Assembly (NCBI GenBank): GCA_900095875.1
Contig: LT608311.1
Location: forward strand, 1,674,001-1,738,000
Origin: Caecibacter massiliensis
GTDB lineage: Bacteria; Bacillota; Negativicutes; Veillonellales; Megasphaeraceae
Reading direction: 5' to 3'
Length of the DNA stretch: 64,000 nucleotides
The notes beneath the pieces were generated by a model, which was not told where the DNA came from, did not search any database, and saw only the letters and a program-made list of their open reading frames with translations. A program made the translations under genes and the position numbers. Positions 24,727 through 40,573 of this stretch are shown piece by piece; within the stretch, counting starts at the first letter, position 1, and every line of letters begins with the position of its first letter.

Positions 24727-26739
24727 CTGATTCTTATTGTTGCGGGCCGCCTGCTGTTTTCCCTGCGGCGTATCCTGCTTTGATTTTTCTTTTGTCGTCG
24801 TAGACTTTGTGCTCTTTTTTTCCGATGCCGTGCTCTTTGTCTCGCTGGCGCGGCTGGCTTTCTGCATGCCTGCCGGTACGGAGAAGTCTGACGAATCGCT
24901 GCTGGCAGCCTGTACCATGTAGTCGTGCCAGATACGGGCTGGTACGGTGCCGCCGTAGATTTCGCCCAGACTGTGGGCTCCCGTGTCGTCGCCGACCCAG
25001 ACGGCGGTGACGATGGCCGGGGTGTAGCCGACGAACCAGGCATCTTTGTTGTCATCGGTCGTCCCGGTCTTGCCTGCTGCCGGCTGGCCGATGGCTGCGG
25101 CTGTACCGGTACCGCTTTCGATGACCGCTTCGAGCATGCTGGTCATTTCATAGGCTTCCCGTTCGGAGAGGACCCGCGTTTCTTCTCCTTTGCCGGAGCT
25201 GTTGTCTTCGATGACATTGCCGTTGCGGTCGAGAATCTTGGTGATGGCCACCGGTTTGACGTGGACGCCCTTATTGGCGAATGTACCGTAGGCGCTGGCC
25301 ATTTCCAGAGGGATGACGCCCCGGGTCAGGCCACCGAGGGCCATGGCCAGGTTGTTGTCATTGGTACTGCCTTTTTCGACGAGGGTCGTAATGCCCATTT
25401 TCTTGGCATTGTTGATGATTTTGGATGTGCCTACCTTGTCGGCCAGCTGGACGGCGATGGTATTGACCGAATGGGCCAGGGCCTGACGGAGGGTCATCGT
25501 GCCGGAATAGGATTTTTCGGCGTTTTGTGGACTCCAGCCACCGTAGGTGACTTTTTTGTCTTCCATGGTCGAATCGGGCGTCATGTCATCCTGCAGGGCC
25601 GTCATATAGACGAAAGGCTTAAAGGCCGACCCAGGCTGACGGACGGCCATGCTGGCCCGGTTGAAGCTGTCCTGGCCGCGGCCGCCTACCATAGCCAGGA
25701 TGTGGCCGTTGCGGGGGTCGATGGAGACCAGTGCGCCCTGGGGCTGGGTCAGGCCGTTTTTATCGGTGTAGTTGTCCGGCAGGTTTTTCATGGCCTGTAC
25801 GGCAGCATGCTGTTTTTCCGTATCGAGGGTCGTGTAAATCTTGAGGCCTTCTTTGTACAGGGCATCGTCGCCGTACTTGGCAGCAACCAGCTGGGAGACA
25901 TAGTCGATGAACGATTCCGATTCGGAGTTTTCCGCTGTCTGCTTGTTGTGGGACAGGTGGAGGTCGGCGTTTTTGGCTTCTGCCGCCTGATCGGATGTGA
26001 TGTAGCCGTATTTTGCCATCTGGTCGAGGACGACGTTTTTACGGGATTTGGCTTCTTCCAGATTATTGAAGGGCGAGTAGTAATTCGGACTCTTGGGCAG
26101 GCCTGCCAGCATGGCGCACTGGGCCAGTGTCAGGTCGTTGACATCGCGGTCGAAGTAGGTCTTGGCCGCCGTCTGGATGCCGTAGGCGCCCTGGCCGAAA
26201 TAAATCTGGTTCATGTACATTTCCAGGATTTCTTTCTTCGAGTACTTGTGCTCGATTTCCAGGGCCAGCATGGCTTCCTGTACTTTACGTTTCAGCGTCT
26301 GTTCCTGGGAGAGGAAGGCATTTTTTGCCAGCTGCTGTGTAATCGTACTGCCGCCCTGGGCGATGCCGCGGTTCGTCAGGTTGGTGACGATGGCGCGGAG
26401 AATGCCGATGGGGTCGATGCCGATATGTTCATAGAAACGGTTATCTTCGGCGGCGATGAAGGCGTTCTGCAGGTTGGCCGGCACTTTGTTAATATCGATG
26501 GGAAGGCGGTTCTGGTCGGAATGAAGAGTCGTGATCAGCCGTCCGTGACTGTCGAATACCTGGGATGAAACGGCTGGCCGCATGTTGTTGCTTACGGGCG
26601 GCAGACTCTGGTAAGCGGCAAAAATATAGCCAAAACCGAGTCCGGCTGCGACGACGAAAAGAAAGACAATGAGCACGCGCAGACTGTGCAGTGGTCCTTT
26701 CTTTTTGGCGTGTTTCGCCCGGCGTCTGGGTGTATACAT
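24724..26739 (-). CDS. Class A penicillin-binding protein (PBP1A-type transglycosylase/transpeptidase)
   Basis: Bifunctional cell-wall synthase of 671 residues, inner-membrane anchored by one helix at about 21-43. The GT51 domain shows EDNRFYEHIGIDP, GGSTITQQLAKN and KRKVQEAMLALEIE. The transpeptidase domain shows the SxxK serine in PGSAFKPF, SVN and KTGTTDDNKDAWFVGY. The C-terminal 50 residues are a low-complexity K/S/T/Q tail. SD AGGAG precedes ATG 26739. It is a single minus-strand gene with an AT-rich promoter region upstream. Confidence 0.93.
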   Translation of the reverse strand: MYTPRRRAKHAKKKGPLHSLRVLIVFLFVVAAGLGFGYIFAAYQSLPPVSNNMRPAVSSQVFDSHGRLITTLHSDQNRLPIDINKVPANLQNAFIAAEDNRFYEHIGIDPIGILRAIVTNLTNRGIAQGGSTITQQLAKNAFLSQEQTLKRKVQEAMLALEIEHKYSKKEILEMYMNQIYFGQGAYGIQTAAKTYFDRDVNDLTLAQCAMLAGLPKSPNYYSPFNNLEEAKSRKNVVLDQMAKYGYITSDQAAEAKNADLHLSHNKQTAENSESESFIDYVSQLVAAKYGDDALYKEGLKIYTTLDTEKQHAAVQAMKNLPDNYTDKNGLTQPQGALVSIDPRNGHILAMVGGRGQDSFNRASMAVRQPGSAFKPFVYMTALQDDMTPDSTMEDKKVTYGGWSPQNAEKSYSGTMTLRQALAHSVNTIAVQLADKVGTSKIINNAKKMGITTLVEKGSTNDNNLAMALGGLTRGVIPLEMASAYGTFANKGVHVKPVAITKILDRNGNVIEDNSSGKGEETRVLSEREAYEMTSMLEAVIESGTGTAAAIGQPAAGKTGTTDDNKDAWFVGYTPAIVTAVWVGDDTGAHSLGEIYGGTVPARIWHDYMVQAASSDSSDFSVPAGMQKASRASETKSTASEKKSTKSTTTKEKSKQDTPQGKQQAARNNKNQ

Positions 26740-26898
26740 ATTTCTCCTGTGACTCCTTTTGTGATGAATTTGTTATTATAAACATCTATTATATATAGGA
26801 CTTTACTAATTTCTAATTATAACACACCTCTGTCCGGTATGAATAGAGGAAAGGGGGCATTTTTGGCGGCTCCGGGGGATACGGGGGCGGAAGACGGC

Positions 26899-26921
26899 TT
26901 GTGTACATAGAGTGTACACAA
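26899..26921. promoter_or_regulatory. Operator-like palindrome between the PBP gene and ppsA
   Basis: TTGTGTAC-7 bases-GTACACAA, perfect 8-base half sites. It is 160 bases before the PBP start and 110 before the ppsA promoter, so either gene could be the target. The remainder of 26740-27028 is AT-rich with no gene. Confidence 0.45.
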
Positions 26922-27028
26922 CTGAAGCAGGATAAACGATATACGGTGCATTATTGTATTATTCCAGGAGAACAATGGTAAGTAGAATATCTTATATATC
27001 AAAAAATATACTAAATACCATAAATCTG

Positions 27029-27057
27029 TTGACATTCACAAGTAAATAATGTACTAT
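27029..27057 (+). promoter_or_regulatory. Promoter of ppsA
   Basis: TTGACA (27029-27034), 17 bases, TACTAT (27052-27057). Confidence 0.7.
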
Positions 27058-27115
27058 AAATGAGAAATCACTAAAAATTAGCATATATGATTTGCACGCT
27101 TCAGGAGGTAGGAAC

Positions 27116-29518
27116 ATGGACAGAGATAAAGCATTTGTATTATGGTTTGATGAATTGCGCCGTGCCGATGTGGCACTGGTCGGCGGCAAGTCGTCGTCTT
27201 TGGGCGAACTGACTTCCCAGACCAAGGTCCCCGTACCCTATGGATTTGCGACGACGGCAGAAGGATACCGTCATTTCATGCATGCTACGGGTCTGGACGT
27301 GACGATTAAGGAACTGCTCAAAGGCCTGACGGACGTAGAAGATCCGGTACAGCTCCGCGATGTCACTGCTTCTATCCGCAAAGCCATCTGCGATGCCGAT
27401 ATGCCGCAAGACCTGGCCGATTCCATCCGCAGCAGCTATGAAGAACTGGGCCGCAAAATGGGCGAAACAGATCCCTTCGTAGCTGTCCGTTCCAGCGCTA
27501 CGGCAGAAGATCTGCCCGATGCCAGCTTTGCCGGCCAGCAGGATACCTACCTCAACGTAAAGGGTGCCGATATGGTCATCCAGAAAGTTAAAGAATGCTA
27601 TGCTTCTACCTTTACGGACCGTGCTACTTACTATCGTACGAAACAGGGATTTGACCACCTTTCCGTCGCCCTGAGTGCTGCCGTACAGATGATGGTATTC
27701 TCCAAGGCGGCCGGCGTCATGTTCACAGTCGATCTGGTGACCGGTGATGATTCGACCATCACCATCGAAGGAGCCTGGGGCCTGGGCGAATACGTCGTAC
27801 AGGGTACGGTTACGCCCGATAATTTCCGCGTACGCAAAGACGACCTGGCCATCATTTCCAAGATGATCAATACGAAACCGATCAAACTGGTCCGCAAGGA
27901 TACAGGCGATGTGGAAGAACAGGCCGTACCGGAAGATCAGCAGAAACAGCCGGCTATTACGGACGATCAGGTCAAAGAACTGGCCGGTTATGCCAAAGCC
28001 ATTGAAAAACATTACGGATGCTATATGGATATGGAATGGGGCGTCGATGAACGGACTAACAAGATCTGGCTCCTCCAGGCCCGTCCGGAAACCGTATGGT
28101 CCAAGAAGAATAAAGAAAAGAAACCAGCCAGTGCAGAAAGCGGTGTCAGTGCAGCTATGACGAAAGACAGAGTTACCATTGTAAAAGGCCTTCCGGCCAG
28201 CCCGGGCCATGCCGCAGGCAAAGCCCATGTCATCCTCGATCCGTCCAAAATCGAAGAATTCAAAGATGGAGAAATCCTGGTCACGACCATGACGGCTCCC
28301 GACTGGGTACCGGCCATGAAGAAAGCCAAGGCCATCGTCACTGATGCCGGCGGCATGACCTGCCATGCTTCTATCGTCAGCCGCGAACTGGGCATCCCCT
28401 GCATCGTCGGCACCAAGAGCCGCAGTCAGGAAGCTACGACGACCATTCAGGACGGACAGGATATCACCGTCGATGCGACGAATGGTATCGTCTATGAAGG
28501 CATCGTAGAAGACATCGTCAAACCGGCTGCTGCTGCACCGGCTGCCACGGCTGCTACGGTCGTTGCTGAAACGGCTCCGATCACGGGAACGAAGATTTAT
28601 ATGAATCTGGGTAACCCCGATCTGGCTGAAAAATACGGCGTTCTCCCCTGCGACGGCATCGGTCTCATGCGGGAAGAATTCATCTGGACGACCTTCATCC
28701 ACGAACACCCCTTATACCTCATTGAAATTGGTCATCCCGAACGCGTTGTTGACCAGCTGGCCGACGGCATGCGCAAAGTCTGCCAGGCCCTGGCTTCGCG
28801 GCCGGTTACGCTGCGCTTCAGCGATTTCAAATCGAGCGAATACCGCAATCTTAAAGGCGGCGATAAATACGAACCGCAGGAAAGCAGCGCCCTCCTCGGC
28901 TGGCGCGGTGCGTCCCGCTACTACGACCCGAAATACATTGAAGCCTTCAAGCTGGAAATCAAGGCTGTACGCAAAGTCCGTGAAGAATTCGGCTTCAAGA
29001 ATCTCAATGTCATGATCCCCTTCTGCCGCCGTGTCGATGAAATGGAAAAAATCGTCAACCTCATGGCTCAGGAAGGCCTGCACCGTGGACCGGACTTCAA
29101 GGTATGGCTCATGGCAGAAATCCCGTCCAACATCATCCTCGCCGACCAGTTCAATAAGTTCGTCGATGGCTATTCCATCGGGTCCAACGACCTGACCATG
29201 CTGATCATGGGCTGCGACCGCGACAATGACACCGTTGCGCCTCTCTTCGATGAACGCAATCTGGCTGTCAAACGGGCTATCCGCCATCTCATCAGTGTCG
29301 CTCATAAAGACGGCAAGACCGTTTCTATCTGCGGCCAGGCACCGAGCGTATATCCTGATTTCACGGAATTCCTCGTCAAGAGCGGCATCGATTCTGTATC
29401 GGTCAACCCCGATGCTGTCATTGCGACGAAAAAGAATGTGGCCCAGATCGAACAGCGGATCCTCATGGATTCCCTGACTGGCAAGGGCCGTGCTGATACA
29501 GAAGATTATACATGGTAA
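27116..29518 (+). CDS. ppsA: Phosphoenolpyruvate synthase (pyruvate, water dikinase)
   Basis: Makes PEP, AMP and phosphate from pyruvate, ATP and water for gluconeogenesis. 800 residues from ATG 27116, chosen over 27092 because of SD AGGAGGTAGG. The ATP-grasp domain is N-terminal (ALVGGKSSSLGEL, VRSSATAEDLPDASFAGQQ). The central swivelling domain has the phospho-acceptor histidine H417 in GGMTCHASIVSRELGIPC. The C-terminal PEP/pyruvate barrel follows, with the late segment GYSIGSNDLTMLIMG. A low-complexity Ala/Thr linker (about 470-487) joins the last two. Its neighbours ccpN-like and ppsR form its regulatory set. PPDK is excluded by length and N-terminus. Confidence 0.93.
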   Translation: MDRDKAFVLWFDELRRADVALVGGKSSSLGELTSQTKVPVPYGFATTAEGYRHFMHATGLDVTIKELLKGLTDVEDPVQLRDVTASIRKAICDADMPQDLADSIRSSYEELGRKMGETDPFVAVRSSATAEDLPDASFAGQQDTYLNVKGADMVIQKVKECYASTFTDRATYYRTKQGFDHLSVALSAAVQMMVFSKAAGVMFTVDLVTGDDSTITIEGAWGLGEYVVQGTVTPDNFRVRKDDLAIISKMINTKPIKLVRKDTGDVEEQAVPEDQQKQPAITDDQVKELAGYAKAIEKHYGCYMDMEWGVDERTNKIWLLQARPETVWSKKNKEKKPASAESGVSAAMTKDRVTIVKGLPASPGHAAGKAHVILDPSKIEEFKDGEILVTTMTAPDWVPAMKKAKAIVTDAGGMTCHASIVSRELGIPCIVGTKSRSQEATTTIQDGQDITVDATNGIVYEGIVEDIVKPAAAAPAATAATVVAETAPITGTKIYMNLGNPDLAEKYGVLPCDGIGLMREEFIWTTFIHEHPLYLIEIGHPERVVDQLADGMRKVCQALASRPVTLRFSDFKSSEYRNLKGGDKYEPQESSALLGWRGASRYYDPKYIEAFKLEIKAVRKVREEFGFKNLNVMIPFCRRVDEMEKIVNLMAQEGLHRGPDFKVWLMAEIPSNIILADQFNKFVDGYSIGSNDLTMLIMGCDRDNDTVAPLFDERNLAVKRAIRHLISVAHKDGKTVSICGQAPSVYPDFTEFLVKSGIDSVSVNPDAVIATKKNVAQIEQRILMDSLTGKGRADTEDYTW

Positions 29519-29533
29519 TACGTTCCTGACTGG

Positions 29534-29577
29534 GGCGGCCCTAAAAGTGTAAACTACTCATAAGGGCCGCCTTTTTA
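29534..29577 (+). terminator. Intrinsic terminator after ppsA
   Basis: GGCGGCCCT (29534-29542) pairs with AGGGCCGCC (29563-29571), then T5. It separates ppsA from the two regulators. Confidence 0.85.
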
Positions 29578-29596
29578 TATTTTCTATTTGTTCCTA

Positions 29597-29625
29597 TTGT
29601 ATATCCTATACAGATAGTATATAAT
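29597..29625 (+). promoter_or_regulatory. Promoter of the ccpN-ppsR pair
   Basis: TTGTAT (29597-29602), 17 bases, TATAAT (29620-29625). TATAC/GTATA-type repeats around it could be binding sites for the encoded regulator. Confidence 0.6.
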
Positions 29626-29675
29626 TATTGGTGTATACTTATAGACTGCCATGGAGCAGGAGGTGAAGAGAGGAC

Positions 29676-30317
29676 ATGTTATCGGAACGCCAGGAAACTA
29701 TTTTAAATATCGTAAAAGAACAGAGCCCGATTACGGGCCAGCATATTGCCGCACAGCTCCACGTGACGCGGGCGGCACTGCGATCGGACCTGGCAATACT
29801 TACTATGTTGGGATTGATTGATGCGCGTCCGAAACTGGGTTACTTTTTTACGGGCAATAAGGAAAAGGATCTGCTGGCACGGATTATTACCAATATCCGC
29901 GTCGAGTCCTGTCTGTCCCAGCCAGTGATCGTGGGCGAGCATACGAGCGCCTATGATGCGGTCATTGCCATGTTCACGGAAGACGTGGGGACGGTGTTTG
30001 TAGGGACGGACAATATTCTGGCAGGTGTCGTCTCACGGAAAGACCTTCTGAAAACGGCGCTGGGCAATAATGACCTGAAAGCCCTGCCGGTGCGCATGGT
30101 CATGACGCCGTCGAGCAAGCTCATTTACGTGGAACCGCAGGAGCAGGCTCTGGTAGCGGCACAGCGGCTCATGGAATATGAAGTGGACTGTCTGCCCGTC
30201 GTCCATGTCCTGGACCGCGATGAAGAAGACCGGAAAGAACTCCAGATTGTCGGACGTATTTCGAAAACTAATATTACCCGTCTCTTTGTAGAATGTGGCT
30301 TGGGGAGGAGATCATAA
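29676..30317 (+). CDS. CcpN-like transcriptional regulator (HTH plus CBS pair)
   Basis: 213 residues. The N-terminal winged helix-turn-helix reads ITGQHIAAQLHVTRAALRSD. Two CBS modules follow (about 75-140 and 145-208), which in CcpN-type repressors sense adenine nucleotides. In Bacillus CcpN represses gluconeogenic genes and is encoded next to yqfL, the same arrangement as here. It is therefore likely to repress ppsA or other gluconeogenic genes. ATG 29676 follows AGGAGGTGA. The stop touches the GTG of ppsR, so the two are translationally linked. Confidence 0.85.
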   Translation: MLSERQETILNIVKEQSPITGQHIAAQLHVTRAALRSDLAILTMLGLIDARPKLGYFFTGNKEKDLLARIITNIRVESCLSQPVIVGEHTSAYDAVIAMFTEDVGTVFVGTDNILAGVVSRKDLLKTALGNNDLKALPVRMVMTPSSKLIYVEPQEQALVAAQRLMEYEVDCLPVVHVLDRDEEDRKELQIVGRISKTNITRLFVECGLGRRS

Positions 30318-31139
30318 GTGGCCAGACCGATTGTCTATGCCTGCTCGGATTCACTGGGAGAAACGGCGGAACGCGTAGCCCGTGCCGCTGCCAGCCAGTA
30401 TAATCAGGAAGAATTTAACATCATCCGCGTTCCCTATATCCGTTCGGAACAGCAGATTGAAGATATTGTAAAAAAGGCGGAAGCAGATCACGCCATGATC
30501 TGTTATACGATTATTTCACCGGTCCTGCGGCGCAAGCTCAAGACGCTGACTAAAAATTCGGATGTGACGGTCGTCGATATCATCGGCCCTATGATGGATG
30601 GCATCGGAAATATCGCGACGACCGAACCGACCATGAAGGCCGGCATGATCCACCGCCTCGATGAAGAGTATTTCAAACGGGTCGAAGCCATCGAATTCGC
30701 CGTCAAGTACGATGACGGTAAGAATCCTATTGGCTTTTTGAAGGCCGATATCGTCATCGTCGGCGTGTCCCGCACGTCCAAGACGCCTCTTTCTATGTAC
30801 CTGGCCCACAAGCGCATCAAGGCGGCCAATCTGCCGCTGGTACCGGAAGTGGCCCTGCCGCCGGAATTGTTCCAGATTCCGGCCCGGAAAATCGTAGGTC
30901 TCATCATCGACCCCTTTAAACTGAACTTTATCCGCAGCGAACGGCTCCGCAGTATGGGGCTGGATTCCAATGCTAGTTATGCCAATATCGACCGCATCAA
31001 TGAAGAACTGACTTATGCCCGCGGCGTCATGCGCCGTCTTCATTGCCCGGTCATCGATGTTTCATCCAAAGCTATTGAAGAAACGGCAAACCTCGTGATG
31101 GATATTGTCAAACGCAATCGTGAACTGTACGATGAGTAA
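30318..31139 (+). CDS. ppsR: PEP synthase regulatory protein (kinase/pyrophosphorylase)
   Basis: DUF299-family bifunctional enzyme that switches PpsA (or PPDK) off by ADP-dependent threonine phosphorylation and on by phosphate-dependent dephosphorylation. 273 residues, normal size. P-loop GVSRTSKTPLS and the N-terminal YACSDSLGETAERVARA are the family signatures. GTG start at 30318 with GGAGAT upstream. Since ppsA is the only dikinase gene in the window and lies just upstream, it is the natural target. Confidence 0.9.
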   Translation: MARPIVYACSDSLGETAERVARAAASQYNQEEFNIIRVPYIRSEQQIEDIVKKAEADHAMICYTIISPVLRRKLKTLTKNSDVTVVDIIGPMMDGIGNIATTEPTMKAGMIHRLDEEYFKRVEAIEFAVKYDDGKNPIGFLKADIVIVGVSRTSKTPLSMYLAHKRIKAANLPLVPEVALPPELFQIPARKIVGLIIDPFKLNFIRSERLRSMGLDSNASYANIDRINEELTYARGVMRRLHCPVIDVSSKAIEETANLVMDIVKRNRELYDE

Positions 31140-31147
31140 TGTATAGT

Positions 31148-31173
31148 AAAAGACGCCGTTTCGGCGTCTTTTT
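31148..31173 (+). terminator. Intrinsic terminator after ppsR
   Basis: AGACGCCG, 3-base loop, CGGCGTCT, T5. Confidence 0.85.
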
Positions 31174-31193
31174 GCGTATGAGGAGGAAATCGT

Positions 31194-34100
31194 ATGAATC
31201 GTGGAAACTCCCTTACTATCCAGGATGCACTGCGCCATGCCCTGAATGACCCATCCTTTGCCCGGCAGCCCCTGTTCCAGTCGGAGCTGCTCGGGAACCT
31301 GCGCCGGCCGGCGATGCTGGCACCCCTTGCAGAGGAGCTGGCCCGTACAGCAGATGGGAACGGCCGGTTTTATGCACCGGCCGTCGCGTCCTGCCTGGCA
31401 AAGCATCTGGATGTCTTTGCCGCCGTGCCCGAAGGCGGCTGGCTGTCGTACTGCTATTATTCCATTCTGGCCCGGCTGTTTCCGGAAAATACGGCAGCCT
31501 GGGACGAGCCGGCCATGACCGCCGCACTGGACGATGCGCCGCCCTACCGCATCGGACGGATCCTGCTGCTGCAGATCCTGCGCGGCCTGTACCAGTATGA
31601 ACGGTATACCCTGCCCTTCGACCCGACGAAGGATATGGAGCTCCTGTCGGAGGATGAAATCCGGGCCAACGGATTTATCCCGGAATACCTCCATATGAAA
31701 GAGCTCATATGGGACCATTATATCTATGAATTCATGCGCATCGGCATCGACATTACGCCTTTTAATACGCTGGGCCATATCGGCGGTGTCCACTATGTCG
31801 CCATGTACATGGCCCGCCAGCTGCGCCAGTGCGATGTGCCCGTAGACCTGGGGCTTATTTCCGGGGCCGCTGCCTGCCATGATATCGGGAAATACGGCTG
31901 CCGCAAGCAGGAAGAGCGGCGCGTCCCGTACCTGCATTATTTCTACACGGGACTGTGCTGCAGCCGCTTTGAACTGCCGGCTATCGGCCATATTGCAGCC
32001 AATCATTCCGTATGGGATCTGGAACTGGAAAACCTGTCTGCCGAGTCGCTGCTGCTCATCTATGCCGATTTCCGCGTCAAGAGCAGCCGGGACGGGAAGG
32101 GCCGGGAAATCGTCCATTTCTATACTCTGGCCCAGGCCTTCGACGTCATCCTGGACAAACTCGACAATGTCGATGACAAGAAGAAGCAGCGCTACCAGAA
32201 AGTTTATGCCAAACTGGCAGACTTTGAAGAGTTTATGAAAGAACGGGGCGTCATTACGGACCTGCCGGAGGATTTCTCCCAGGCGCCGCTCTTTCCGCCG
32301 GAACGGATCCACCGCGAACGGGTGCTCATGGAAGGAAATGATGTCGTCTCCGAGCTGAAATACGCCGCCATCGACCACAACCTGCGCCTCATGGCGATAT
32401 TCCGCAGCGAGAGTGATTTTGGCAACCTCATCGAAGCCGCCCGGAGCGAACGGAACTGGAAAAATGTCCGTACGTATATCAGTATTTTCCGGGAATATTC
32501 GACGTATATGACGGAACATCAGAAGATGATGACCCTCAAATACCTCTATGAACTCTTGTCCCACCGGGAAGGGGATATCCGCATGGATGCAGCGGCCCTC
32601 ATGGGCTCTATCGTGGCCGATTTCAACGACCGCTATACGAAAGAGCTGCCTGATGGAGTGTCCCTGCCGCAGAAGGAAATCACCAATCTCGTCCTGTTCC
32701 GCCACTATCTGTCGCTCATCATCAAGCCGGGACTGCGCTTTACGGCCCAGCACCGCATGTGGATTGGCTACTGCCTGGGGACCTTTGTCAGCACGGTCCT
32801 TCAGGACTGCTATGTTACGGACCGGCCGTCCTATATGGACATCCTGTGCTCATATTATGAACGGACGAATTACATGACCGAGCTGTATATCATCCTCCTG
32901 AAAGCACTGGGCGATGTCGGGTCCGCTTATATGGATGAAACGTTCCAGGAGACGGCCCGTTCGTTCATTACGACAGCGGCCGGAGCGGAAGACACGAACC
33001 TGCAGATCGCAGCCCTCTACTGCCGGCACAAACTGCACCTGTGCCCGGAAACGGAATTCTGGCAGGATCTGCTGACCGTCAAGGGACTGCCGTCTGAGCG
33101 GGAAGCTTTTTATCAGAAAGAGGGGAGCCTCTATCTGGATGACCTCAAAATGGGGACCCACTGGGTCGTCAAGGTAGCCAACATCGACCTCATGATCCAT
33201 TATCTCAACGATGCTTGTGACAGCGGCACGGTCATGCACCTGTGCATGCATCTGACCAACCTGCTCAAAGTGAGCGAATCTCTGTTCGTCCGCCAGGCTG
33301 CCGGCCAGGCACTCATGTCTATCGCCGGCCGCATGACCTACGCCCAGCGCAATGAAATGGCGGTGGAACTCTTCAACGGGCTGGAAATCGGCGACCTGCA
33401 GATTTCCAAATATGTGCCGGAGTATCTGGGACGTATGATTCTGAAACTGCCGCCGCAGGAACTGGACGAATTCGTCATCACCCTGGATCAGCAGATCCTG
33501 ACGGCCAGCACTCAGGTGGCGTCGTCCATGGTCAGTACGATCGGCGTCATTCTGGAACATTTCCGGGAATTCATGGCGGCATTTCCCAATTATGAGGAAA
33601 AGAACAGGGAACGGCAGCGCCATCTCCTGTATATCATGATCAAGGCCTATGCCCATTACGACAAGGAACGGAGCCGCGACGCCTTCCGCGATATCGGCCG
33701 TTTCGTCTTTAACAGCCCCTGTATGCCGCAGGAGCAGACGGATTTCCTCTTTGCCCATTCGTACAAGAAATTGCTGATCACCCTCTATGAAAATAGTGAA
33801 GGGACGCTGGATTTTTACAGCAATGCCGCCGTGCTGAACCATATTTACCGCTATATCAGCCGTCACCAGTTCCTCTGCGGCCCCTTCCAGTTCCCACGCC
33901 ATCATAAGGCCTGCTTTTATCCCGGCACCTTTGACCCCTTCAGTCTGGGGCACAAAGCAGTGGCCTGCCGGATCCGCGACCTGGGCTTCGATGTCTATCT
34001 GGCCCTGGATGAGTTTTCCTGGTCCAAGCATACCCAGCCGCGTCTCATGCGCCGCAAGATCATGAATATGTCTGTAGCCGATGAAGAGGATATTTATCCC

Positions 34101-36056
34101 TTCCCGGACGACGTGTCGGTCAATATTGCCAACGAGGCCGACGTGCGCCGCCTGAAGGAAATCTTCACGGGTAAAGAGCTGTACATCGCCGTCGGAACCG
34201 ATGTCATCGAAAACGCCTCGGCCTATAAAGCCGTGCCGACGGCCGATTCCATCCATACGGTGAACCACATCACCTTTGCCCGGGAAACGCGGGAGACGAA
34301 GAATAAGAAGGGGACTGGCGGCTATCCCATTACGGGCAAAGTCATTCCGCTCCTCCTGGATAAATTCTACGAAGACATCAGCTCGACCCGTATCCGGGAA
34401 AATATCGACCTCAACCGGGATATTTCCAATCTCATTGACGCCGTAGCCCAGAATTTCATTTACGATAACAACCTGTACCTGCGCGAACCGGCGTACAAAC
34501 ACGTCCTGGAAGCCCGGGAAATCGGTATCGGCGCCTTCCGGCCCAGAGGAGCGGAAAGTCTCTGGCCGATTTACAGCCGTCTCGGCGCCCTGGGGTATGA
34601 CATCGACGTAGTGGACCGCTACATCGAACGGGACCGCAATATCGACAAGGAACGGGTCTGGACGATTTATATCGATAACGCGGGGAAGCAGAAGCAGATG
34701 ATTGCCTACGCGGCCGTCCACAATGCCCACAGCCGGGACCTGCTGTCCGAATTCGGCGATATGCAGACGGCGGACCACATCCGGCGCCACGCGGCCGGCA
34801 GTATTGCTTCCATCGGTTTTTTGTATATTGCCGGCGATTCGGATATTAGTAATGCCGGCCAGATCATCATCACGGAAGTCCTGACGGAACTCATTGCCCG
34901 GGATTACGCTTATGCCGTGTACCATCCCGTCGATGAGGCTGGTTATAACGACGCCGTCCTCGATGCCCTGGTGAAACAGGGGTTTGTCAATATCGCCCCG
35001 CCGGGATCGGCCCATCCCCTGTATGCGGTCAATATGAAGGATCCCATCGTCATTTTCCGCGACGTGGAAACGATTATCAAGAACCCCTTCAACAAGCATC
35101 CCCGGGTCCTGCAGGCACTGGAACAGGCCCATACCAATCTGTTGGCCGTCATGCGGCGCATTTATCCGGGCAAGCTGCTCCTGTCGTTCAATACGAGTGC
35201 CATGCACCATAAGATCATTACCAAGATGGCCCACATCAACGGCGTTTCTATCGTCGATGATCCGAAGAAGCGGCGCGGCCCCTATATGTCTGTTCCCTTC
35301 GGCAAGGCCCTGAGCGACGTCCTCGTGCCCAATACGGTCACCAAATCGCTCCACATCGAAAAGTATTTTAACCGCGCCGTCAAGGGATTTACCATTGCCG
35401 AAACCCACCACTATTCGTCCGTGGAAAACCAGGTCCGGACCATTAAGTCCTTCAACCGGCCGGTCATCCTCATCGACGACCTGCTCCACAAGGGACACCG
35501 CATGCGCATGCTGACGCCGTATCTCATCAAGAACCAGGTGGAAATCAAAGAGGTCCTCGTCGGCGTCATGACCGGTCAGGCCATGGATATGATGGCGGAA
35601 AAGCACATCAAGGCCGAATGCGCCTATTACCTGCCGACGCTGGAAGTCTGGCTCAACGAACGGGACTGCTATCCCTTCATCGGCGGCGACAGTATCGACA
35701 ATGCCCACGATTACAGCGGGTACGACCGCAATCCGTCGGTCAATCTCATCCTGCCCTATGTCAAGCCGGCTTTCATTAAGCACAGTGACCCTGATGCGGC
35801 CTTCCTCTATTCCCTTACCTGCCTGAAAAACGCCCGGCTGATCATGAAGACCCTGCAGGATGTGTATCAGGAAACGTACGAAAAGCGCCTGACCCTTAAG
35901 CGTCTCGGCGAAGTCGTCACCTATCCCCGCTATCCCGATATCGATGTGGGTGTCACCTTCGACCAGAATATGGATCTGACGCGGTTCATAGAAAACGACA
36001 TAGAACGGCTCATCCGCCTGCGCTGGGGCGAATACTGGAAACTGGATGAAGAATAA
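31194..36056 (+). CDS. Giant multidomain protein: HD phosphohydrolase, helical repeats, NadD-like nucleotidyltransferase, GNAT-like and PRTase-like domains
   Basis: 1620 residues, soluble. An HD-type metal site is at about 195-290 (H200 in VHYVAMYMARQL, H229-D230 in CHDIGKYG). About 390-880 is all-helical and HEAT-like. A cytidylyltransferase-fold domain begins at about 905, with GTFDPFSLGH (911-920) and ISSTRIR (1062-1068), as in NadD/CoaD. About 1110-1240 resembles a GNAT acetyltransferase (GSIASIGFLYIAG, LVKQGFVNI). A phosphoribosyltransferase-like domain carries the PRPP loop VILIDDLLHKGH (1424-1435). HD protein YqeK and NadD are often neighbours in Firmicutes; here related folds are fused. 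Function unknown; a nucleotide or NAD-type cofactor role is inferred. SD GAGGAG precedes ATG 31194. Confidence 0.8.
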   Translation: MNRGNSLTIQDALRHALNDPSFARQPLFQSELLGNLRRPAMLAPLAEELARTADGNGRFYAPAVASCLAKHLDVFAAVPEGGWLSYCYYSILARLFPENTAAWDEPAMTAALDDAPPYRIGRILLLQILRGLYQYERYTLPFDPTKDMELLSEDEIRANGFIPEYLHMKELIWDHYIYEFMRIGIDITPFNTLGHIGGVHYVAMYMARQLRQCDVPVDLGLISGAAACHDIGKYGCRKQEERRVPYLHYFYTGLCCSRFELPAIGHIAANHSVWDLELENLSAESLLLIYADFRVKSSRDGKGREIVHFYTLAQAFDVILDKLDNVDDKKKQRYQKVYAKLADFEEFMKERGVITDLPEDFSQAPLFPPERIHRERVLMEGNDVVSELKYAAIDHNLRLMAIFRSESDFGNLIEAARSERNWKNVRTYISIFREYSTYMTEHQKMMTLKYLYELLSHREGDIRMDAAALMGSIVADFNDRYTKELPDGVSLPQKEITNLVLFRHYLSLIIKPGLRFTAQHRMWIGYCLGTFVSTVLQDCYVTDRPSYMDILCSYYERTNYMTELYIILLKALGDVGSAYMDETFQETARSFITTAAGAEDTNLQIAALYCRHKLHLCPETEFWQDLLTVKGLPSEREAFYQKEGSLYLDDLKMGTHWVVKVANIDLMIHYLNDACDSGTVMHLCMHLTNLLKVSESLFVRQAAGQALMSIAGRMTYAQRNEMAVELFNGLEIGDLQISKYVPEYLGRMILKLPPQELDEFVITLDQQILTASTQVASSMVSTIGVILEHFREFMAAFPNYEEKNRERQRHLLYIMIKAYAHYDKERSRDAFRDIGRFVFNSPCMPQEQTDFLFAHSYKKLLITLYENSEGTLDFYSNAAVLNHIYRYISRHQFLCGPFQFPRHHKACFYPGTFDPFSLGHKAVACRIRDLGFDVYLALDEFSWSKHTQPRLMRRKIMNMSVADEEDIYPFPDDVSVNIANEADVRRLKEIFTGKELYIAVGTDVIENASAYKAVPTADSIHTVNHITFARETRETKNKKGTGGYPITGKVIPLLLDKFYEDISSTRIRENIDLNRDISNLIDAVAQNFIYDNNLYLREPAYKHVLEAREIGIGAFRPRGAESLWPIYSRLGALGYDIDVVDRYIERDRNIDKERVWTIYIDNAGKQKQMIAYAAVHNAHSRDLLSEFGDMQTADHIRRHAAGSIASIGFLYIAGDSDISNAGQIIITEVLTELIARDYAYAVYHPVDEAGYNDAVLDALVKQGFVNIAPPGSAHPLYAVNMKDPIVIFRDVETIIKNPFNKHPRVLQALEQAHTNLLAVMRRIYPGKLLLSFNTSAMHHKIITKMAHINGVSIVDDPKKRRGPYMSVPFGKALSDVLVPNTVTKSLHIEKYFNRAVKGFTIAETHHYSSVENQVRTIKSFNRPVILIDDLLHKGHRMRMLTPYLIKNQVEIKEVLVGVMTGQAMDMMAEKHIKAECAYYLPTLEVWLNERDCYPFIGGDSIDNAHDYSGYDRNPSVNLILPYVKPAFIKHSDPDAAFLYSLTCLKNARLIMKTLQDVYQETYEKRLTLKRLGEVVTYPRYPDIDVGVTFDQNMDLTRFIENDIERLIRLRWGEYWKLDEE

Positions 36057-36069
36057 GGGGGAACTGTGT

Positions 36070-37062
36070 ATGGAACAAGTACATTATATCCATGAATTGC
36101 CGGGACAGGCCGGTATTGCGGCTCCGCTGTCCCTTGCCGGCCGGCCCTTTACGCCGGGGAAGAAGGCGCGCGTCCACATCCTGGCCCTGGGTGACGTGGG
36201 AATGACGATGCTCATCGGCCTGCGCCTCCTCGGCGCGGCGGATATTGCCTGCATCGGCATCTGCGACCTCAATGAAAACAATCTGCGCCGGCTGGAGCTG
36301 GAAATCAACCAGATACGATATCCTTTTGCCGGCCAGGGGGACGGTCCGGTACTGCCTCCCGTCCATATCGTCACGGAAGAGAAGCTCTTTGACTGTGACG
36401 TCTTCATCTTTTGTGCCAGTAAAGGCGTACCGCCCCTTTCGGCAAAGGGAGACGTACGCATGGCCCAGCTGGAAGCCAACAAAGGCCTCATCGGCCATTT
36501 TGCCGGGCTGGCCCGTAAAGCGGCATACGGCGGTCTGGTTTGTATCGTTTCTGATCCCGTAGACCCCCTGTGCGCGGCCTTTTTGGACGAATCGGGCGTC
36601 CAGCCCTGGCAGATACAGGGCTGCGGCCTCGGCGTCATGAATGCCCGGGCCTGTTACTATGCAGAACAGGATGAACGGATGGCCCATTACCTCAAGGAAG
36701 GACGGGCTTTCGGCCCCCACGGAGAAGACCTGGTCATCGCCGACCGCATCGATGGCTATGACGATGCTCTGTCGCGGGAACTGACCAGAAAGGTCGTAGA
36801 AGCCAACTACGTCGTCCGGAATCTGGGGTATAAGCCGTACATCGCGCCGGCCCTGTCATCGGCAGCCCTGTCCATCCTGCTGACGCTTGACGGGCGCTGG
36901 CATTACGGGTCGGTATATCTGGGAGACCGGGACCGGGGCGCCTTCCTGGGCGTACGCTGCCGCTATACGGACGAAGGGCTGGCTTACGAGGACCTGCCTC
37001 TTCCCGGGGCGTTGTACGAACGCATTGCCTATGCCTACCTCAGGTTGTGCGAGTTACGGTAA
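36070..37062 (+). CDS. Lactate/malate dehydrogenase-fold protein
   Basis: 330 residues from ATG 36070 (SD AAGGGGG; an in-frame ATG at 36046 overlaps the previous gene and lacks an SD). The N-terminal Rossmann motif reads HILALGDVGMTMLIGLRLLG, with the acidic strand end CDLNENNL. The middle segment CIVSDPVDPLCAA resembles the LDH/MDH substrate region, but a clear catalytic Arg/His pair typical of LDH is not evident. True lactate dehydrogenase activity is thus doubtful. It is 13 bases after the giant gene and 13 before the flavodoxin-fold gene, so the three are one operon. Confidence 0.7.
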   Translation: MEQVHYIHELPGQAGIAAPLSLAGRPFTPGKKARVHILALGDVGMTMLIGLRLLGAADIACIGICDLNENNLRRLELEINQIRYPFAGQGDGPVLPPVHIVTEEKLFDCDVFIFCASKGVPPLSAKGDVRMAQLEANKGLIGHFAGLARKAAYGGLVCIVSDPVDPLCAAFLDESGVQPWQIQGCGLGVMNARACYYAEQDERMAHYLKEGRAFGPHGEDLVIADRIDGYDDALSRELTRKVVEANYVVRNLGYKPYIAPALSSAALSILLTLDGRWHYGSVYLGDRDRGAFLGVRCRYTDEGLAYEDLPLPGALYERIAYAYLRLCELR

Positions 37063-37075
37063 GAAGGGATGTACT

Positions 37076-38146
37076 ATGTTGTATGTTGTCAAAATGGGAT
37101 GGCAGGAACCGGGCCATCCCGAACGGGTAGACAGCGCTTTGCGCTATGCCCTCCAGGACGTGCCTCATACGGTCATCGACAGTCTGGCCCCCTTTGTGGC
37201 CCTGTGCACGCGGCGCAGCGGCGGCGAAGACCTGCGCTTCCTCTTTGCCATCAATCTGGCCCGGGGCGGCCTCAATATGGCCTACGCCCGCATGATTTCC
37301 TTCCTTTCCCAGCATGTCCACTGTCTTGAAGGCTGCTGCGGTGCTGTCGTCGTCGATGGGGCCGATGAGCTGTTTACCAAGAAAATTGGCAGGGAAATGA
37401 TTTTCATGGCCAACCGTTCCGGCTGCGCCTTTCCGGGAAAGCCGCTGGTCGAGGCGACGGGTTCGCTGTACAATTTCACCATACAGGCCCGGGTGCGGGG
37501 AGTCGATAATCTGGGAGCCTATCAGGAAGGCGTCCGCCAGCTCGTGGAGAAACTCCTATCCTTTGCAACGCCGCCAGAATGCGGGCGCCGCGTTCTGGCG
37601 CTCCACGCCAGCAGCCGCCGTACCAGCAATACCCTGCTGTTGTGGGAAATGGTGCGCCGCTATCTCACGGCGTCGCGGGTAGAGGAAATATCCCTGCGCA
37701 ACGGGGCGGTCGTGGACTGCCGGGGCTGCAGTTATGAGGCCTGCCTGCACTTCGGTGAACGGGGAGACTGCTTCTACGGCGGCATCATGGTGGAACAGGT
37801 CTATCCTGCCGTGCGCCAGTGCGATACGCTGGTCCTCATCTGCCCTAACTATAACGATGCCGTCGGGGCCAACATCATGGCCTTTTTCAACCGCCTCACT
37901 GCCTTGTTCCGGACGGACTGGCAGACTTTTTCGAAAAAACGCGTCTTTGCTCTGATTGTTTCCGGTTACAGCGGCGGCGATATCGTGGCCGAACAGATCA
38001 TCGGGGCGCTGAACTGCAACAAGAATTTCATCCTGCCCGGTCATTTTGCCCTCATGGAAACGGCCAACGAACCGAAGAGTATCCTCCGCTGTCCGGGAAT
38101 TGAGGAACGGGCGGAATTATTGGCCCGTAATATCGATATGAAATAA
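37076..38146 (+). CDS. Flavodoxin-fold NAD(P)H/FMN oxidoreductase-like protein
   Basis: 356 residues from ATG 37076 (SD AGAAGGG). Residues about 175-350 match NADPH-dependent FMN reductases and iron-sulfur flavoproteins: LALHASSRRTSNTLLLWEMV (phosphate loop) and LICPNYNDAVGANIMAFFNR. A Cys-rich stretch VDCRGCSYEACLHFGERGDC could bind a metal cluster. The first 170 residues are a separate domain that I cannot name. As third gene of the operon with the giant protein and the LDH-fold protein it suggests a redox step in the same unknown pathway. Confidence 0.7.
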   Translation: MLYVVKMGWQEPGHPERVDSALRYALQDVPHTVIDSLAPFVALCTRRSGGEDLRFLFAINLARGGLNMAYARMISFLSQHVHCLEGCCGAVVVDGADELFTKKIGREMIFMANRSGCAFPGKPLVEATGSLYNFTIQARVRGVDNLGAYQEGVRQLVEKLLSFATPPECGRRVLALHASSRRTSNTLLLWEMVRRYLTASRVEEISLRNGAVVDCRGCSYEACLHFGERGDCFYGGIMVEQVYPAVRQCDTLVLICPNYNDAVGANIMAFFNRLTALFRTDWQTFSKKRVFALIVSGYSGGDIVAEQIIGALNCNKNFILPGHFALMETANEPKSILRCPGIEERAELLARNIDMK

Positions 38147-38163
38147 TAGAAGCGCAAAAAAAG

Positions 38164-38209
38164 GGTATAAAAAAAGATGATTCAGAGAAGAATCATCTTT
38201 TTTTATACC
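38164..38209. terminator. Bidirectional terminator between convergent genes
   Basis: A 20-base perfect arm (38164-38183, starting GGTATAAAAAAAG) pairs with 38190-38209 across a 6-base loop. A-rich on one side and T-rich on the other, it serves both the 37076 gene and rpmB. Confidence 0.9.
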
Positions 38210-38212
38210 GGA

Positions 38213-38404
38213 TTATACATCACGCTGTACTTTGCCGGAACGGAGGCAGCGGGTGCAGACGTTTACGCGTTTGACTTCGCCGTCTACGATAGCGCGTACT
38301 CTCTGGATGTTCGGCTTCCAGGTTCTTTTGGTTTTTAAATGGGAATGGCTGACATTCATGCCCGTTACGGTACCTTTACCGCAGATTTCGCAATAATTTG
38401 CCAT
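38213..38404 (-). CDS. rpmB: 50S ribosomal protein L28
   Basis: 63-residue ribosomal protein beginning MANYCEICGKGTVTGMNVSH, with a second cysteine pair in NVCTRCLRSGKV. It is thus the zinc-binding (C+) form of L28. SD AGGAGGTG lies before ATG on the minus strand. It is monocistronic, convergent with the upstream operon and divergent from recG. Confidence 0.97.
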   Translation of the reverse strand: MANYCEICGKGTVTGMNVSHSHLKTKRTWKPNIQRVRAIVDGEVKRVNVCTRCLRSGKVQRDV

Positions 38405-38443
38405 GGGTTACACCTCCTAGTACTTTCGCAGTACAACATACAA

Positions 38444-38472
38444 ATCTTATCATAAAATATGGGGCAAATCAA
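38444..38472 (-). promoter_or_regulatory. Promoter of rpmB
   Basis: On the minus strand TTGATT (38472-38467), 17 bases, TAAGAT (38449-38444). Confidence 0.65.
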
Positions 38473-38539
38473 GGATTATTTATTAAAAGCCTACAAAATA
38501 TGATACAATAAATACAACCAAATGACAAGGAGTATTTTC

Positions 38540-40573
38540 ATGGATAGTTCAATTCGCCGGCTGCCCGGTATCGGAGTACGCCGGGAAAAGCTGTTTGCCC
38601 GTCTGGGAGTCACGACGATTCCCGCACTGCTCCAGTATTTCCCCCGCGATTATGAAGACCGGAGCCACGTCGTCCCCATCGGCCGGGCGGACCTGGAACG
38701 GAAGGAACCGGTCCTGGTGTGCGGCCGCGTCGGGACCATACAGGAAATACGGCCCCGGCGGGGCATGACGATTTTAAAGGTCGTGCTCCACGATGAAACG
38801 GGAGCCGTAGAAATGACCTGGTTCAATCAGCCGTTCAAGAAAAAACAATTTCATACGGGCATGACCGTATCGGCCTTCGGGCGCATCGAGTGGAATTATG
38901 GCAGGCGCCAGATGAATACGCCCGATGTGGAAGAAGGAGAACCACAGGGGCAGGGATTCATGCCGCTCTACGGACTGACGGACGGCCTGCGCCAGTCCGA
39001 CGTGAGAAAAGCCGTGCGCCAGGCCCTGACCCTGGCCCGGACAGAACAGGATCTCCTGCCGGCGCCGTGCCGGCCGACAAGTCACTCCCGGTTTCCTCTC
39101 GTCGAAGCTTATGAGATGATGCATTTCCCCAAAAGCCGGGAAGAACAGGAGAAAGCCCGGGAGCAACTGGCCTATGAAGAATTGTTTGACATGCAGGCCG
39201 GCCTCTGCCTGCGCCGGCGGCGGGAAGGACGGCGGCAGGGCATCAAATGCGGCCCCAACGGCCCCTTACTGAAGCAGTTTTTTGACCAGCTGCCCTTTGC
39301 CCTGACCAGAGGCCAGACCTGTGCCTTCCTCGATATCCAGAACGACATGGAAGGCGAAGTGCCCATGCAGCGCCTCGTCCAGGGGGACGTCGGTTCCGGC
39401 AAGACCGTCGTTGCGGCCCTGGCCCTGGCCAAAATCGTGGAAAACGGCTATCAGGGAGCCCTCATGGCGCCGACAGAAATCCTGGCATCCCAGCATTACG
39501 AGGAATTCAGCCGCCTCTTTCAGGGCCTGCCCGTGCGCATTGCCCTGCTTACGGGACGGACCGGGGCCAGGGACCGGGTGCAGCTGCTGGAAGACCTGCA
39601 GAGTGGGGCCGTGCAGATCCTCATCGGTACCCATGCCCTCATCCAGGACGACGTGCAGTTTGCCGCCCTGGGGCTGGTCGTCACCGATGAACAGCACCGC
39701 TTCGGCGTGCGCCAGCGGGAAGCCCTGCAGAAAAAAGGCCGGGCGCCGCACACGCTGTACATGACGGCGACGCCGATTCCCCGTACGCTGACGCTGTCTT
39801 TGTACGGCGATCTCGATGTATCATCCATCCGCGACCTGCCGCCGGGACGACAAGTCGTCAAAACCTATGCTGTCGGCGAGTCCATGCGCCGGCGCATCTA
39901 TGCGTTCATGGAAAAGACGATGAAAGCCGGCCAGCAGTGCTACGTCGTCTGCCCCCTCGTGGAAGAGTCGGAAAACGTAGACCTGCAGGCGGCTACGGCA
40001 TTGTATGACCAGCTGCGGACGTCCGTTTTTCCCCGGTTCCGCTGCGGCCTCGTCCATGGGAAGATGGCAGGGAAAGAAAAGGAAGCCGTCATGGAAGCCT
40101 TCTCCCGCGGAGAGATACAGCTCCTGGTGGCGACCAGCGTCATTGAAGTCGGGGTCAACGTACCCAATGCGACGATTATGCTCATCGATGGTGCCGAACG
40201 GTTCGGACTGGCCCAGCTCCACCAGTTGCGGGGCCGCGTCGGCCGGGGCAGCCTGCAGGCGTACTGCATCCTCCTTGCTAAAAAAGGCAGTGAAGAGACG
40301 AGACAGCGCCTGCACTATATGGAGACCATCCATGACGGGTTCGTCCTTTCGGAAAAAGACCTGCTCCTCCGTGGGGCGGGCCAGCTCTTCGGCTATGCCC
40401 AGCATGGCCTGCCCGATCTGCACGCCGCCGATATCATCCGCGACGTGGCGCTCCTTGCAGAGGCGCGGGAGGAAGCGGCATCCTTTGTGAACGGACATGG
40501 TGCAGAAGAACCGGTCATCCGGGCCCTGAAGCGGCGGTTTGGCGGGTCGTTCCAGAAACTGCTGAATAACTGA
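38540..40573 (+). CDS. recG: ATP-dependent DNA helicase RecG
   Basis: Branch-migration helicase that remodels stalled forks and Holliday junctions. 677 residues from ATG 38540 (SD AAGGAG). The N-terminal wedge/OB domain begins RRLPGIGVRREKLFARLG. Superfamily 2 motifs are GDVGSGKTVVA (Walker A), VTDEQHRFGVRQRE (DEQH box), MTATPIPRTL, and VIEVGVNVPNAT...QLRGRVGRG. The C-terminal wedge-contacting region LLLRGAGQLFGYAQHG is present. Length is normal. Confidence 0.95.
   Translation: MDSSIRRLPGIGVRREKLFARLGVTTIPALLQYFPRDYEDRSHVVPIGRADLERKEPVLVCGRVGTIQEIRPRRGMTILKVVLHDETGAVEMTWFNQPFKKKQFHTGMTVSAFGRIEWNYGRRQMNTPDVEEGEPQGQGFMPLYGLTDGLRQSDVRKAVRQALTLARTEQDLLPAPCRPTSHSRFPLVEAYEMMHFPKSREEQEKAREQLAYEELFDMQAGLCLRRRREGRRQGIKCGPNGPLLKQFFDQLPFALTRGQTCAFLDIQNDMEGEVPMQRLVQGDVGSGKTVVAALALAKIVENGYQGALMAPTEILASQHYEEFSRLFQGLPVRIALLTGRTGARDRVQLLEDLQSGAVQILIGTHALIQDDVQFAALGLVVTDEQHRFGVRQREALQKKGRAPHTLYMTATPIPRTLTLSLYGDLDVSSIRDLPPGRQVVKTYAVGESMRRRIYAFMEKTMKAGQQCYVVCPLVEESENVDLQAATALYDQLRTSVFPRFRCGLVHGKMAGKEKEAVMEAFSRGEIQLLVATSVIEVGVNVPNATIMLIDGAERFGLAQLHQLRGRVGRGSLQAYCILLAKKGSEETRQRLHYMETIHDGFVLSEKDLLLRGAGQLFGYAQHGLPDLHAADIIRDVALLAEAREEAASFVNGHGAEEPVIRALKRRFGGSFQKLLNN

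Follow-up and report, generated by a model that had tools for sequence, protein, structure and literature searches.

What might a bacterium gain from a single polypeptide that joins an HD-type hydrolase, a NadD-like nucleotidyltransferase, a GNAT fold and a phosphoribosyltransferase (PRTase)-like region? This question is raised by a gene in the window analysed here, a stretch of 64,000 nucleotides from Caecibacter massiliensis (assembly GCA_900095875.1, contig LT608311.1, positions 1,674,001 to 1,738,000 of the forward strand). The gene, which we call the giant gene, is an open reading frame (ORF) of 1620 residues at 31194-36056 (+). A check of the window's ORFs found it intact, with an ATG start, and it is single-copy, being the sole match in its own genome at E 0.001. 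An earlier sequence-only reading of the window had described this ORF and placed the four regions in one polypeptide, which profile and fold matches support, with the PRTase-like region as the weakest. Absent from that reading were two genes that lie directly downstream and change the likely meaning of the giant protein. The domains follow each other in the order listed here, with the HD domain spanning residues ~160-360 and its boundaries placed as follows.

31194..36056, + strand: giant gene HD-HEAT-NMNAT-GNAT-PRT, 1620 aa (ORF and genome search)
31671..32279, + strand: HD domain, residues 160-362 (Pfam HD in members; conserved residues)
32346..33893, + strand: HEAT/ARM-type alpha-solenoid, residues 385-900 (AlphaFold2 model; fold matches)
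33906..34481, + strand: NadD/NMNAT-like nucleotidyltransferase, residues 905-1096 (Pfam, PDB profile, Foldseek, HHalign)
34515..35042, + strand: GNAT-fold domain without the acetyl-CoA pyrophosphate loop, residues 1108-1283 (VIA-align; motif search)
35151..35693, + strand: probable type-I-PRTase-like domain, residues ~1320-1500, with a variant of the phosphoribosyl pyrophosphate (PRPP) loop, VILIDDLLHKGHR, at 1424-1436 (weak profile matches; motif conservation)
35694..36053, + strand: conserved C-terminal extension with no fold assigned (alignment)
36070..37062, + strand: partner 1, a protein of the lactate/malate dehydrogenase (LDH/MDH) superfamily, whose ORF also opens at 36046 (Pfam Ldh_1_N; PDB profile)
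37076..38146, + strand: partner 2, an FMN_red flavodoxin-fold protein with an N-terminal extension of ~170 residues and a C-x2-C-x4-C-x8-C motif (FMN_red, E 1.2e-14)

Conserved sites and folds of the giant protein

To describe conservation, we used an alignment of 51 sequences, comprising the window protein, 12 loci from a scan of named genomes and 38 further loci, 32 of which were chosen for family diversity. One of the 51 (L005) is cut short. The named-genome scan relied on exact 8-residue peptides, which detect close relatives only, and two short pieces (L024 and L025) were left out of a separate 16-row alignment. The five-domain architecture is collinear down to 33% identity, or 26% for one decayed copy. 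At 48 key positions, 43 of the 51 homologues are unchanged; as we selected these positions from motif and conserved columns, the figure describes joint retention and is no independent test. The other eight all differ at K1433, six of them having 1-3 changes in total, one (L057) six and one (L157) 22. Hardly any variation is seen at the catalytic positions of HD and NMNAT, which are lost together in one fast-evolving copy only. The sequence-only reading had named random variation of catalytic residues among homologues as the outcome that would undo it, and the near-invariance of these two sites shows a different pattern.

In the window protein, the Pfam HD model matches residues 193-274 with an E-value of 0.0084 and 20.8 bits, below the gathering score of 22. 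A domain scan at E up to 0.1 found it in 18 of 22 members (best 2e-6), a set from which the decayed copy L157 had been excluded. H195, H229, D230, H248, H266, H271 and D292 are each conserved in 50 of the 51 homologues. Of the metal residues proposed earlier, the H229-D230 pair thus stands and H200 does not: the Acidaminococcus rows have Ser or Thr at this position, and the conserved first His is H195. The giant protein carries the H..HD..D ligands of HD metallohydrolases with a further His for a second metal. This ligand scheme is set out in a study of YqeK, an HD enzyme with a dinuclear site (PMC8177086), and the residue set of the giant protein is of the same multi-histidine kind, though the family is not YqeK. 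At E 0.001, the YqeK model TIGR00488 matched only the separate yqeK gene of the genome, not the giant gene.

The sequence-only reading had noted about 500 residues of helical repeats, and these are indeed modelled as an alpha-solenoid. The AlphaFold2 (AF2) model of residues 150-900 has a mean pLDDT (predicted local distance difference test) of 80.9 and is nearly all helical; structural alignments made with VIA-align on this model cover mainly the solenoid. Its top matches are HEAT/ARM proteins (best Z 13.2, root-mean-square deviation (rmsd) 4.0, 239 residues aligned), which indicates a fold class, not a relationship, because a Z of ~13 is not above the tool's background for helical repeats.

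The following domain resembles NadD by several routes. CTP_transf_like (Pfam) matches residues 908-1070 of the window protein above its gathering score (E 3.9e-9). The NCBIfam NadD models match residues 905-1096 with E ~5e-7, yet far under their cut-offs: against TIGR00482 (NadD), the giant protein scores 34 bits where 112.45 are required, placing it outside the curated family. A profile of the domain searched against the PDB gave the nicotinate mononucleotide (NaMN) adenylyltransferase 5llt as the best match (2.6e-10), and Foldseek gave the Staphylococcus aureus NaMN adenylyltransferase 2h29 (7.2e-7). In HHalign comparisons, the NadD of the same genome reached a probability of 97.7, CoaD 82.4 and the best of 120 control ORFs 4.2. 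By these comparisons, NadD is the nearest named target of the domain.

With NadD/NMNAT proteins (TIGR00482), the giant protein shares the nucleotidyltransferase fold and the GTFDP..H, GxD and SSTxIR elements, and the GTFDPFSLGH, ISSTRIR and VILIDDLLHKGH motifs lie where the sequence-only reading had located them. The (H/T)xGH-type and SxTxIR-type motifs are present with some variation. The first reads (S/T)x(S/G)H, with SLEH in one homologue, so that Ser or Thr replaces the first His in all 51 while the last His is retained in all 51. In the GxD motif, the Gly is found in 50 and the Asp in 51 homologues, and SS(T/S)xIR occurs in 49. H920, D939, E940, W943, K945, R953 and D1003 are invariant (51/51), and S1063, S1064 and R1068 are each present in 50. 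The NadD of the same genome has a Trp after GxD, whereas the giant protein has a Tyr there, as judged by eye. Since the genome carries separate NadD and YqeK genes, we rejected the giant protein as the housekeeping NadD/YqeK pair. A second NadD-family gene, scoring 130 bits and thus over the TIGR00482 cut-off, lies elsewhere in the same genome, away from the nadD-yqeK pair (L137, C2:427821-428384).

The GNAT fold is seen in a VIA-align match to 3lod (Z 13.9, rmsd 3.1, 139 residues aligned). Alignments on the underlying model of residues 888-1620 cover mainly this domain and neither show nor exclude other folds there; one copy that is cut short (L005) was kept out of the C-terminal structure alignment. 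Pfam Acetyltransf_1 was found in a single one of 23 members, and of the five domains GNAT shows the least conservation. The acetyl-CoA loop [QR]xxGx[GA] occurs in it in none of the 51 homologues. Ordinary use of acetyl-CoA by this domain is therefore unlikely, and we rejected the domain as an acetyltransferase. With the loop missing and conservation at its lowest here, the acylation included in the sequence-only proposal finds no support.

In the PRTase-like region, the Pfam family Pribosyltran (PF00156) matches residues 1366-1450 of the window protein under its gathering score (E 0.18). A domain scan with E up to 0.1 detected it in 6 of 23 members (best 7e-4), and no other Pfam family hit more than a single member. 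All three PDB matches of the region's profile are PRTases, at weak E-values of 0.24-0.8. D1428 and D1429 are each conserved in 50 homologues and R1436 in 49. The region has in common with type I phosphoribosyltransferases (PF00156) a hydrophobic strand, the acidic DD pair and the helix/strand pattern that follows; where these enzymes have TGxT, the giant protein has a KG[YH]R-type loop, the motif DDLL[HN]KG[YH]R being found in 38 of 51 homologues in place of the classical PRPP loop. Of the PRPP-type loop reported earlier, the acidic pair thus holds and the classical TG part does not. Weak sequence matches and motif conservation together make the PRTase-like assignment probable.

The two partner genes

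Both partners are oxidoreductase-like proteins; one locus (L164) was excluded from their alignments, which comprise 22 sequences each. Partner 1 matches Pfam Ldh_1_N below gathering (8e-4), and the best PDB match of its family profile is an LDH/MDH protein (5.7e-8); its scores are under the curated LDH/MDH cut-offs. It shares with the L-lactate/malate dehydrogenase superfamily the Rossmann N-domain, the GDVG motif and an acidic residue. GDVG is kept, and the acidic residue of the NAD type after strand 2 is found in 20 of 22 sequences. In LDH, roles are assigned to the catalytic Asp168-His195 pair, Arg109, Arg171 and Asn140. The equivalents of Arg109, Arg171 and His195, identified by eye, are invariant in the 22 aligned sequences.

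The FMN_red domain of partner 2, which it shares with the NADPH-dependent FMN reductase family (PF03358), was detected in all 22 members. In addition to what that family has, partner 2 carries the N-terminal extension, which has no assignment, and the four cysteines of C-x2-C-x4-C-x8-C, which are invariant in the 22 aligned sequences and could bind an iron-sulphur cluster. A PDB profile search found no sequence relative of partner 2 at E 0.001.

Partner 1 adjoins the giant gene in 48 of the 51 loci (all but L053, L157 and L163) and partner 2 in 45 (L002, L012 and L013 being the further exceptions, with a partner 2 ORF in L002 that looks frame-shifted). In 25 of these 45, the two partner genes overlap by 4 bases when the first start is taken, while in the window they are separated by a 13-base gap. 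The link extends to whole genomes. Among 150 genomes of one order, which we guess to be Tissierellales, the giant gene is present in 86 (called at a best E of 5.8e-166 or lower, read from the match table). Of these 86, 83 also carry partner 1 and 80 carry partner 2; neither partner was found in the other 64 at E 1e-40. In three genomes (G615, G712 and G713), partner 1 is not beside the giant gene but on another contig. Conversely, the copy of G800, with its HD residues and NMNAT motifs lost, comes from a one-contig genome in which no partner 1 was found at E 1e-5, a paired loss that speaks for the link.

A possible dinucleotide module and its alternatives

The domain set and the two oxidoreductase genes travelling with it suggest that making or policing an NAD-like cofactor may be the task of the giant protein. 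Our preferred reading, which we hold tentatively and at somewhat less than even confidence, is that the three genes together make up a single biochemical module centred on an NAD-type dinucleotide, in which a synthase-plus-proofreader would deliver a product used by two oxidoreductases. The PRTase-like domain would make or handle a base-ribose-5'-phosphate and so feed a ribotide to the NMNAT domain, which would move AMP from ATP onto it to give a dinucleotide. The HD domain would then cleave the pyrophosphate of wrong or surplus dinucleotide, the task that YqeK has beside NadD in mycoplasmas. Holding the sites together or docking the partners might fall to the HEAT solenoid, and the GNAT fold would be structural or ligand-binding. 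Of the partners, the LDH-like protein would bind the dinucleotide and have as its substrate either a 2-oxo/2-hydroxy acid or the cofactor itself; the flavoprotein would exchange electrons with it. The product could be NAD for a dedicated use or an NAD analogue with a different base.

A precedent for the core of this scheme is a NadD-YqeK fusion from a mycoplasma, JCVISYN3A_0380. Its YqeK domain hydrolyses nicotinate adenine dinucleotide (NaAD) as well as analogues with a wrong base, which the NadD domain is able to produce (PMC9426524). As in the giant protein, an HD hydrolase and a NadD-type adenylyltransferase are held in a single chain. That fusion has these two named domains only, whereas the giant protein adds the solenoid of ~500 residues and the GNAT and PRTase-like domains. 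The arrangement differs as well: in the giant protein, the HD domain precedes the transferase, across the solenoid, the GNAT and PRTase-like domains come after, and the HD domain is not YqeK-like by profile comparison. With this precedent, making, adenylylating and hydrolysing a nucleotide, as the sequence-only reading had proposed, is retained as the leading inference. Each fold is known, and so is an HD-NadD fusion. In agreement with the earlier remark that no described function was known for the combination, we found no description of the five-part chain with its two partners in the open-licence literature, a body of work that leaves out most subscription papers.

Several observations weigh against the dinucleotide module. 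As a YqeK, the HD domain of the giant protein was rejected, with an HHalign probability of 1.1 at rank 5/124 and four control ORFs scoring higher. In the PRTase-like domain, K1433 is kept in 43 of 51 homologues, and the model of residues 888-1620 has a mean pLDDT of 55, falling below 50 over much of the domain, which is probably due to an alignment of only 12 rows, all from close relatives. The TG loop of the classical PRPP motif (TGxT) occurs in none of the 51 homologues, and with the other motif in its place PRPP chemistry is uncertain. In partner 1, Met replaces the catalytic Asp168 and Asp replaces Asn140 in all 22 sequences, leaving the LDH catalytic set incomplete, so that this protein may not be a dehydrogenase.

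The linkage is imperfect, too. Partner 2 is not beside the giant gene in the Acidaminococcus loci L012 and L013, as read from the local regions. Three of the 86 giant-bearing genomes lack partner 1 (G800, G736 and G832) and six lack partner 2. Among these, the giant gene of G800 is visibly decayed, and several others are incomplete copies in fragmentary assemblies. No partner 1 was found either in G736, whose giant copy stops at position 1506 of the 1626-position profile, or in the fragmented assembly G711. Co-occurrence, moreover, speaks for a shared role and not for a cofactor in common; the genomes, being related, are not independent, and shared ancestry inflates any p-value.

A doubtful but serious alternative is quality control of NAD(H), without any new cofactor. 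Here, the HD domain would hydrolyse damaged or wrong-base NAD and the NMNAT domain would rebuild it, while the LDH-like protein and the flavoprotein would bind and re-oxidise abnormal reduced forms. NadD-YqeK fusions have such a proofreading role (PMC9426524), the presence of a normal NadD and a normal YqeK leaves room for a specialised role, and a flavoprotein beside an NAD-binding protein suits re-oxidation. However, this account leaves unexplained both the PRTase-like domain and the lack of the module in 64 of the 150 genomes of one order.

It is unlikely, though conceivable, that the operon makes, proofreads and uses an NAD-like dinucleotide redox cofactor with a non-nicotinamide base. The PRTase-like domain would then join such a base to ribose phosphate, the NMNAT domain would adenylylate the product and the HD domain would edit errors; the re-shaped LDH-like enzyme and the flavoprotein, with a putative iron-sulphur cluster, would be dedicated users in fermenting anaerobes.

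We consider it quite unlikely that the NMNAT and PRTase-like domains make, and the HD domain breaks, a small signalling nucleotide tied to the pyruvate or redox state, with the oxidoreductase-like proteins acting as redox sensors. RelA/SpoT proteins likewise carry synthetase and HD hydrolase on a single polypeptide, and pyruvate-node genes lie in several differing neighbourhoods of the giant gene, including a PEP (phosphoenolpyruvate) synthase and a PPPase-type regulator in the window. Such genes are, however, common in fermenters, and no sensor domain is evident. Improbable, finally, is a role mainly as scaffold or regulator, with NMNAT, PRTase and GNAT folds that serve ligand binding and not catalysis: the acetyl-CoA and classical PRPP loops are missing in all 51 homologues and HEAT-type solenoids are typical of scaffolds, but near-invariant HD and NMNAT catalytic positions, jointly lost in a single fast-evolving copy, argue against it.

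An enzyme of ~1,600 residues in which two or more active sites look intact, and which persists across 33-40% identity in close linkage with a pair of oxidoreductase-like partners, points to a substantial piece of anaerobe metabolism. If the dinucleotide module is the right reading, it would represent a dedicated pathway for a dinucleotide cofactor or a novel type of quality control for NAD. In either case, the plain labels 'nicotinate-nucleotide adenylyltransferase', 'lactate dehydrogenase' and 'FMN reductase' should be applied with caution to ORFs of these kinds.

Neighbourhood, flanking signals and distribution

Upstream of the giant gene, the window holds a PEP-synthase-type gene, an HTH-CBS gene and a kinase-PPPase (PpsR-like) gene, and two hairpins flank the three-gene unit.

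31148..31172, + strand: strong hairpin (11-bp stem, loop of 3 nt) with a T-run, separating the giant gene from the ppsR-like gene (sequence; fold)
38164..38209, no strand assigned: terminator-like palindromic hairpin 3' of the three-gene unit (site scan, which listed it on the - strand; fold z -7.92)

The region of the first hairpin (31134-31199) folds with -21.8 kcal/mol (z -4.17), and a scan for terminator-like sites did not list it. It lies just upstream of the ribosome-binding site of the giant gene, where GAGGAGG is found at 31180-31186, 5' of the ORF, and a weak promoter-like match at 31105-31133 lies 5' of it. The hairpin could be the terminator of the upstream (ppsR) unit or, given this preceding promoter-like match, a leader attenuator. 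Rfam at its gathering threshold gave no match in 26700-39000.

At other loci, pyruvate-node neighbours include a phosphotransacetylase (L004), a POR-family subunit (L145), an OadA-like protein (L141) and a LUD-domain protein (L057). Clusters resembling L-serine dehydratase subunits, named by eye from one member each, occur in the fetched regions of 13-14 of the 51 loci. A gene of ~212 aa resembling undecaprenyl-diphosphate synthase (L143, 3621-4253) was found by clustering in 13 further loci and is often accompanied by genes resembling these subunits. One wrongly cut piece of the giant gene (L150:6781-7000) was dropped from the ten-protein neighbour scan.

Candidate mobile or defensive origins were considered separately. 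A phage gene was rejected, with no phage match. For a plasmid gene, the sole match in the plasmid collection was a stretch without annotation (L173) in a record of Acetoanaerobium noterae, NZ_CP154629.1, which is listed as a plasmid in PLSDB and, at 2.63 Mb, is presumably the chromosome. An anti-phage defence system was likewise rejected, as none of the three window proteins matched a PADLOC family at E 0.01.

The profile searches covered one phylum, in sampled sets that overlap. Full-length or near-full-length copies, as read from match tables, were found in 11 of 60 near relatives (the own genome included), 18 of 300 genomes of the class and 8 of 398 across the phylum. In three orders, copies occur in 5/35, 8/21 and 86/150 genomes, some of the 86 being pieces at contig ends. 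The remaining matches are short and weak and fall mostly in the NadD or HD region. Proteins encoded by the Megasphaera, Colibacter and Anaeroglobus loci are identical to those of genomes assigned to the host's own genus, which suggests that the host falls within Megasphaera as GTDB defines it.

Some copies depart from the intact form. The relative in G800 (L157, 7150-11940) is decayed, with its HD residues and NMNAT motifs lost; it sits on a long branch beside an intact copy, adjoins DUF4363 and YetF-like genes and is likely a pseudoenzyme derivative. In Anaeroglobus geminatus (L005, 7836-12690), the giant ORF ends at 1498 aa and the C-terminal part lies in another frame, reflecting either an assembly error or a broken gene. 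Finally, the copy of Eubacterium pyruvativorans, an organism of the class Clostridia, is 65% identical to that of the window and groups with Acidaminococcus (support 0.80), which suggests that the giant gene has moved between lineages.

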